A DNA stretch of 64,000 bases from contig NZ_PVWF01000004.1 of assembly GCF_003003995.1 (NCBI RefSeq), positions 1 through 64,000 of the forward strand, read 5' to 3'. The translations under genes were made by a program, and so were the position numbers. Position 1 is the stretch's first letter. Every line of letters begins with the position of its first letter. Shown here piece by piece: positions 9,299 to 9,571 of this stretch. The notes under the pieces were generated by a model. That model was not told where the DNA came from. It was given only the letters and a program-made list of their open reading frames with translations, and did not search any database. This stretch comes from Pleurocapsa sp. CCALA 161. Its GTDB lineage: Bacteria; Cyanobacteriota; Cyanobacteriia; Cyanobacteriales; Xenococcaceae.

Positions 9299-9351
9299 AA
9301 AAACTATCCGCCCCCACAAGCTAATAACAGAGTTAATGCTTATGGGGGCGG
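9299..9351 (-). terminator. Rho-independent terminator-like hairpin
   Basis: On the minus strand CCGCCCCCATAAGC (9351-9338) pairs with GCTTGTGGGGGCGG (9321-9308). This gives a 14-bp GC-rich stem with one mismatch and a 16-base loop, and TTTTT follows at 9303-9299. It is one of the strongest terminators in the window. It ends the small transcript before cysK. Confidence 0.8.
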
Positions 9352-9443
9352 TCTAGAGGGTCTCTTAGTCGAAACCTAACTGCTGGAAGGATCTCCAACA
9401 ATGTCTACCTAGTTACTTCCGCAGAAGTTTAAGATGAGACTGC

Positions 9444-9515
9444 TTAAAGAACAGCCCCAGCACACAGCTGGCTATCATCAACTAGGAGACCCATGTTACT
9501 ACTATGTTCTGTCAT
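9444..9515 (-). CDS. 23-residue micro-ORF with extended Shine-Dalgarno
   Basis: ATG at 9515 is preceded 8 bases upstream by AGGAGG, part of a ten-base match (AGGAGGTGAT) to the 16S rRNA anti-SD, which is exceptional for this genome, where most genes have weak sites. The peptide begins MTEHSSNMG and ends LCAGAVL, with one cysteine and no obvious membrane segment. An internal in-frame ATG (codon 8) follows. It could be a leader peptide controlling the downstream terminator and cysK, a free-standing small protein, or chance. I do not recognise the peptide. Confidence 0.4.
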   Translation of the reverse strand: MTEHSSNMGLLVDDSQLCAGAVL

Positions 9516-9571
9516 GGGCATCACCTCCTATATTCTTATAATGGCTAGTTTGATACTTATGTATCTATGAA

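Follow-up and report, generated by a model that had tools for sequence, protein, structure and literature searches.

The window, i.e., the whole 64,000-nucleotide stretch of Pleurocapsa sp. CCALA 161 analyzed here, carries on its minus strand a small unit lying between cobB and cysK. The unit opens with an extended Shine–Dalgarno (SD) sequence, AGGAGGTGAT (9529-9520), which is the first part of what we call segment A; the second part, CCCATG (9518-9513), includes the start codon (ATG 9515-9513). Since the 16S 3' end in two same-genus genomes (G006 and G008) reads ...GGATCACCTCCTTA, the complementarity of AGGAGGTGAT to it spans 10 nt, as an earlier note on this DNA had claimed; a 16S gene was looked for in the window's own assembly and not matched. 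The ORF (9515-9444) has 23 codons (MTEHSSNMGLLVDDSQLCAGAVL) and ends at TAA 9446-9444, likewise as first described; the ORF listing begins at an upstream GTG and has the same stop. Within the ORF lies segment B (CATGGGTCTCCTAGTTGA, 9495-9478), which can pair either with A, closing the SD, or with segments C or C', leaving the SD freer. Both pairings originally proposed between the SD/AUG region and the ORF are present, CCCATG (9518-9513) with CATGGG (9495-9490) and AGGAG (9529-9525) with CTCCT (9488-9484). Absent from that first description were the partners of B past the stop, namely C' (AACTAGGTAGAC, 9414-9403), a genus-specific competitor facing GTCTCCTAGTT of B, and C (TCGACTAAGAGACCC, 9372-9358), the 3' strand of a long-range helix, P3. 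Also absent was the sharing of a strand between hairpin H (CCAGC/GCTGG, 9471-9457) and helix P4, in which GCTGGGG (9461-9455) pairs with TTCCAGC (9388-9382). The unit closes with the intrinsic terminator already reported, CTA-CCGCCCCCATAAGC ... GCTTGTGGGGGCGG-TAG followed by TTTTT (9356-9299), whose stem, read by eye, has 14 bp including one G-U pair. Of 92 non-redundant cyanobacterial copies, 80 or more have a recognizable terminator start, CTA..CCGC, and the 250-nt unit folds with a z of -4.7 against dinucleotide shuffles.

Upstream, a candidate promoter, TTGCCG-17-TATATT (9602-9574, minus strand), overlaps the 3' end of cobB; with 9 of 12 matches it is a weak candidate, since promoter-type sites are no commoner here than in shuffles. 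By eye, TTGAC/TATAGT-like boxes are similarly placed in many Chloroflexota copies. A promoter-like site with 10 of 12 matches also lies on the plus strand (9515-9542), opposite the SD region, and its TATAAT did not recur, by eye, in the relatives inspected. The 5.37-Mb genome has just two places where AGGAGGTGAT is followed by an ATG 2-10 nt on; the one outside the unit was considered as a second copy and rejected, as it sits within a 294-codon reading frame.

That the unit belongs to no known family, as the earlier note had it, holds for the databases: at the Rfam 15 gathering threshold no known-family covariance model matched at the unit in the window, 15 related loci gave only three tRNA matches, none of them at the unit, and neither Pfam nor NCBIfam gave a family match. 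For the literature it probably does not hold. The cyanobacterial sRNA ncl0160 (Mitschke 2011a) is discussed by Brenes-Alvarez et al. 2016 (PMC4734099), and the portion of that paper available to us describes 83 homologues with a conserved 23-25 aa peptide, a possible RBS always 5' of it, 47 TAA, 34 TAG and 2 TGA stops, and some GTG starts. Our unit is likewise a putative small RNA with a 23-25 aa ORF after an RBS, TAA, TAG or TGA stops, and a broad spread in heterocystous and other cyanobacteria. The cyanobacterial branch is therefore very probably ncl0160, matched by these described features and not by sequence. Unlike our unit, ncl0160 comes with no mention of Chloroflexota homologues, SD sequestration or a second fold in the same portion of PMC4734099. 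Yfr6 was considered as an identity and rejected, since, according to the part of PMC1242208 available to us, it differs in having 244 nt and 33 aa. Within the open-licence literature searched, no other paper carried the name ncl0160 and nothing on a Chloroflexota counterpart or a gate mechanism was evident among the papers listed; the unit's peptide and DNA strings were absent from the main texts. The unit is genuine, is conserved over a wide range and has in part been published before. The Chloroflexota homologues and the conserved bistable SD gate appear, within the literature searched, to be new here.

Conservation extends well past the species level: 57 of 60 relatives were matched by blastn, and covariance-model matches were obtained in two phyla. 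Two outcomes that the earlier note would have counted against itself, a lack of conservation past the species and a match to a known RNA family in Rfam, did not occur. A pattern scan in which each species was represented by one genome gave at least 114 stretches and, among the pattern matches listed, 103 were Cyanobacteria and 11 Chloroflexota by title. With a covariance model built from 44 cyanobacterial copies (E<=0.01, strict filters), 123 of 386 genomes of the cyanobacterial phylum matched: 98 of 105 in the order of the window (its own genome and genus counted in), 21 of 24 in the other, oxygenic families of the class outside family f41, 4 of 57 in f41, weakly (E 1.9e-4 to 4e-3), and 0 of 200 in the other classes. 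Family f41 we take to be Cyanobiaceae-like; its loci L276, L277 and L278 are diverged copies in which the SD is AGGAGGAGGTG and the ORF has 17 codons, e.g., MSSSCLTQGLLIAENAG. Another diverged copy, L284, is from a lineage that is presumably Gloeobacter-like, and L279 was dismissed on sequence reading as a chance match.

The same cyanobacterial model (E<=0.01) matched 37 of 301 Chloroflexota genomes, a number that is neither complete nor fully verified because its weakest matches are unread and some copies that were read (e.g., in G574, G582, G470, G488 and G676) are absent from it. Pattern matches with at most one mismatch occur in 75 of the 301, many of them chance sites. When 20 chosen Chloroflexota loci were searched (79 kb in all) with a cyanobacteria-only model, 19 were recovered at E 2.6e-9 to 0.014. 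The order of parts is identical in the two phyla, and a further motif, CCG-N2/3-AGG, precedes the SD by 12-18 nt in 83 of 119 cyanobacterial copies (2 in 100-nt control stretches) and by 13-14 nt in 23 of 36 Chloroflexota copies (1 in the control stretches). One Roseiflexaceae genome, G430, has two different units (L058 and L224), with peptides MSDQRMGVTEVAK and MSDCKRMGVAGSVAR. A phototroph-only spread was considered and rejected: a Photo_RC match was found in 13 of 28 Chloroflexota unit genomes, whose completeness is not stated, and none in the other 15, so the unit seems not to be tied to phototrophy. Mobile copies were also sought; none of eight IMG/VR pattern matches was a unit when read, and a plasmid search gave no match to the unit. 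One of the IMG/VR contigs (L231, 3729-3784, minus strand) has AGGAGGTGATGCCCATG, then a frame of 3 codons and a hairpin, GGCCAC...GTGGCC, its other parts not being family-like.

We then considered what lies next to the unit, surveying 144 loci with duplicate genomes and cut contigs counted in. Many Nostocales have the layout psbD - unit - pterin-4a-carbinolamine dehydratase - SLH/OprB porin, the genus of the window has cobB - unit - cysK, other groups have further layouts, and the Chloroflexota loci have different neighbors. Since these layouts vary, the unit is apparently a gene of its own. The remaining alternative on this side is that it serves as a cis leader or attenuator of whatever lies downstream, here cysK, which we regard as very improbable. 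A cysK cluster does follow in 12 of 13 genus loci (L001-L013) and in two other families (L020 and L025), and among the 144 loci, counted as above, a porin lies near 73, the dehydratase near 53, a cobB-like gene near 42, psbD near 28 and cysK near 17. However, no downstream gene is conserved throughout, the unit-to-dehydratase distance ranges from about 120 to 1,400 nt, the Chloroflexota neighbors differ, and a terminator intervenes. The link to cysK is not supported, because the neighbors change; the earlier suggestions of a leader peptide, taken as acting in cis, and of cysteine/sulfur sensing through cysK fare accordingly, the first being unlikely and sulfur control being rejected on genomic context. 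The other readings offered there, a riboregulator and a dual-function small RNA, are still candidates. Many Nostocales copies are found some 335 nt from the end of a contig, which had raised the suspicion that the unit adjoins rRNA operons; this too was set aside: 15 loci scanned contained no rRNA, and several Nostocales have psbD upstream. In G534, which we take to be Herpetosiphon-like, the unit L205 (G534:C1:5443400) and a 16S 3' end (G534:C1:5447186) are under 4 kb apart, and by coordinates the operon should run toward the unit.

To characterize the reading frame, we compared 119 distinct cyanobacterial ORFs, in which the open frame itself follows from their selection. Lengths are 23 codons in 104, 24 in 14 and 25 in one, stops are TAA in 67 and TAG in 52 (a TGA was seen by eye in the deep copy L267), and neither of the other two frames is free of stops in any of the 119. 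The ATG is 21 nt from the TGGG of B in 101 and 24 nt from it in 18, so every one of the 119 spacings is divisible by three. Among cyanobacterial copies with the A pattern and enough flank (153, plus L146, L147 and L153, which have other tails), none falls outside 23-25 codons. ORFs in the deeper copies found by the model have 17-25 codons, and in two Chloroflexota copies, L200 and L217, the stop is missing at its usual place and the frame runs on. The stop coincides with a predicted hairpin tip in 30 of 36 Chloroflexota copies and lies 11 nt 3' of the A-pairing part in 25 of the 36, the ends of L200 and L217 being imposed in both counts. Judged by the usual footprint of a ribosome, this is close to the position at which termination would leave B free.

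These lengths, and the loop that changes in steps of three, would suit a gene whose product is the micro-protein, with the folds merely tuning its translation, which we think fairly unlikely. In its favor, substitutions in the second half of the ORF show a silent excess when counted over close, mutually non-independent pairs: 73 silent versus 88 replacing in B (expected silent fraction 0.29), 215 versus 198 in the H/P4 arm (0.35) and 48 versus 0 in the last three codons (0.32), with Ala, Val and Leu kept at codons 21-23 in 99, 93 and 97 of 103 sequences. Moreover, ncl0160 is judged "likely translated" in the portion of PMC4734099 available to us. Against it, loop codons 2-8 show only 100 silent versus 649 replacing changes (expected silent fraction 0.18) and all codons 233 versus 490, again over non-independent close pairs. 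The residues encoded by B shift with the helix (HQV, LLV, HLI), the 48:0 for AVL rests on few events because silent codon variants are few and the pairs are not independent, and Chloroflexota peptides have, by eye, little in common with cyanobacterial ones. Some constraint on the second half of the peptide is possible, and frame and stop are better kept than its first third. By eye the peptides are polar and lack the long hydrophobic stretch expected of a type I toxin. The kept frame and stop also bear on the idea that the 10-12 nt SD acts as a decoy, gripping the 16S 3' end and parking or titrating 30S subunits while open. The unusually long complementarity in both phyla, at only two sites in the window's own genome, would fit such a decoy, but neither a kept frame nor a stop would be necessary for it, and we rate it improbable.

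We next turned to the two folds. In alignment A1, comprising 50 cyanobacterial sequences hand-picked for diversity, 93.6% of P3 and P4 cells are paired and 13 of 22 pairs have changed on both sides; such both-side-changed cells number 117, compared to 40.1 in shuffles and 4-15 with slid partners. Taken separately, P3 (i.e., B:C) covaries strongly, with 11 of 15 pairs changed on both sides, and P4, 99.1% paired, has 2 of 7. Hairpin H is 96.8% paired with 2 of 5 pairs changed on both sides, a weak signal since 183 of 500 shuffles equal it. A change running through three strands, CCGGC/GCCGG/CCGGC versus CCAGC/GCTGG/CCAGC, is also seen in A1. GGAGGTGATGCCCATG is invariant across the 50 copies, which were chosen by matching GGAGGTGATGCCCATG, and is variable in some deep copies. 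Segment A can barely covary, because it is fixed by the ribosome; B varies, yet by eye keeps its complementarity to A, reading CTCCT in Xenococcaceae and CATCA in Nostoc, and TCACC, TCGCC, TTGCC or CGCCTCC in Chloroflexota. The reading frame is kept, but the residues of the loop drift.

To more quantitatively compare the two pairings, predicted binding of B was calculated for 35 distinct Chloroflexota copies and for 68 of the 92 non-redundant cyanobacterial copies, i.e., those distinct in B and C in which B and the terminator were found by pattern. In Chloroflexota, the energies were -33.0 kcal/mol with the copy's own C, -23.9 kcal/mol with C taken from other copies and -18.7 kcal/mol with shuffled C; the corresponding cyanobacterial values were -25.4, -18.2 and -9.7 kcal/mol. 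The copy's own C was better than 95% of shuffles in 32 of 35 Chloroflexota and 68 of 68 cyanobacteria. The A:B pairing passed the same mark in 34 of 35 Chloroflexota, but in 50 of 68 cyanobacteria, 18 of the 68 failing it. The two helices have five or more B nucleotides in common in 35 of 35 Chloroflexota and 67 of 68 cyanobacterial copies. Together, these calculations support the notion of a bistable, conserved fold in which A:B and B:C would be mutually exclusive, and the self-sequestering micro-ORF RNA first described is well supported and conserved in two phyla. The interpretation in the earlier note, taken as a whole, is supported in part.

The strand that the exchange of folds would set free raises a further alternative, in which the 3' strand (GUUCCUUCCGGCAGUC...GACCC) pairs with target mRNAs as a trans-acting sRNA, with the ORF there for timing or stability. 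This we hold to be unlikely, though a serious candidate. Among cyanobacteria this stretch shows good conservation, and only one of the two states leaves it unpaired; the unit is a stand-alone gene with its own terminator whose homologues are catalogued as an sRNA in the portion of PMC4734099 available to us. Conversely, P3/P4 pairing alone could account for the conservation of GUUCCUUCCGGCAGUC...GACCC, and the Chloroflexota copies that were read are without it.

We now return to the gate. The free energy needed to open nine bases of the SD was predicted under three conditions, with C left out, with C present and with C shuffled, by a folding calculation that takes no account of kinetics, ribosomes or proteins. 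Over 80 of the 92 cyanobacterial copies (12 were dropped, their terminator start being unrecognized or the room too little), the mean cost was 5.50 kcal/mol without C, 3.02 with C and 5.56 with shuffled C; over 37 distinct Chloroflexota copies, it was 9.96, 4.60 and 9.14 kcal/mol. With C included, the cost was lower by over 1 kcal/mol in 61 of the 80 cyanobacterial copies (6 of 80 with shuffled C) and in 34 of 37 Chloroflexota copies (15 of 37 with shuffled C); it was higher by over 1 kcal/mol in 2 of the 80 cyanobacterial copies, compared to 9 with shuffled C. Copies with a cost below 3 rose from 8 to 46 of 80 in cyanobacteria and, with 20 nt past the stop included, from 0 to 24 of 37 in Chloroflexota. 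For the window copy, C itself had little effect (6.6 versus 6.4), and it is C' that drives the predicted opening, the mean cost over six assumed 5' ends falling from 7.2 for the ORF only to 4.3 for C' and 4.0 at full length. Calothrix L067 showed little net opening in the length scan.

The predicted opening changes as the Chloroflexota transcript lengthens, the mean cost being 2.8 at 20 nt past the stop, 4.5 at 60 and 5.1 at 90. A drop of more than 1 kcal/mol persists in 30 of 37 copies at +60 and 29 of 37 at +90, while 11 and 15 of the 37, respectively, cost 6 or more. In the fold predicted to 60 nt past the stop, the main partner of the SD lies 3' of the stop in 17 of 37, the re-covering sequence often being, by eye, a pyrimidine-rich CCTTCTCC-like stretch. 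Since this later sequence partly re-covers the SD, the Chloroflexota gate may be a pulse and not a lasting opening, and the CCTTCTCC-like stretch is a possible third player in the gate. A CCTTCTCC-like stretch 3' of C is also predicted to re-pair the SD in L032, L086, L189, L191 and others.

We consider it somewhat probable that the unit is a stand-alone micro-mRNA whose SD stays closed until C is made and then opens, briefly or lastingly. Such a gene would consist of a leader, a micro-ORF and a terminator, with the ORF gated by two exclusive folds. While only A and B are transcribed, B would mask the SD and AUG; once C is transcribed, just past the stop, it would capture B and free a very strong SD. 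Conserved pairings and folding energetics both point to this release by C, and we infer that it occurs in cells. The SD is predicted to remain accessible in cyanobacteria, whereas a segment further 3' would mask it again in roughly half of the copies from Chloroflexota. A translating ribosome would unwind B:C. Once it halts at the stop, which lies between B and C, it would have passed B while covering, or not yet having reached, C, so that B should re-pair with A and close the SD; we infer this re-closing from geometry only. A two-state switch run by transcription and the ribosome would allow few rounds of translation, and the free strand would report initiation capacity. The candidate outputs are the peptide, pairing by the freed 3' strand, and 30S binding. 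The rivals weighed above concern this output, and not all of them exclude the gate.

A bolder version extends the same geometry. Here, the unit would be a self-closing, near single-use mRNA in which each ribosome flips B:C to A:B and so records that translation took place. As an old RNA of both phyla, it would sense initiation capacity, be operated by the ribosome and act in trans in its second state. This is a tentative and rather unlikely proposal. If the ribosome itself does work the switch, the unit would be a compact cellular readout of translation capacity.

The gated micro-mRNA that we favor has several analogues. In hok-type type I toxin mRNAs, which are also small, metastable structures mask the SD while the RNA is being transcribed; however, the complete hok transcript is closed and is opened by processing, whereas here C would open the SD and no hydrophobic toxin is encoded. 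The ermC and trp/his-type attenuators set A:B against B:C pairing around a short ORF, but theirs governs a downstream gene in cis, while here the gated ORF would be the unit's own and the downstream gene is unconserved. RNAIII/hld and SgrS/SgrT are dual-function RNAs that place a short ORF and conserved structure on one small transcript, as the unit would. Although it occurs in 98 of 105 sampled genomes of the order (e.g., Nostoc and Anabaena) and in some Chloroflexota, with a two-state ribosome-binding site that compensatory changes have preserved, the RNA is absent from Rfam, the RNA family database searched, and is assigned no function in the portion of PMC4734099 available to us.

A sub-group of Chloroflexota copies, L217-L221, builds the same gate from other letters. 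Its B is GGGCCGCCTCC, the partner of B is GGAGG plus GCCC of the SD region, and C is the complement of B, an arrangement that is either convergent or deeply diverged.
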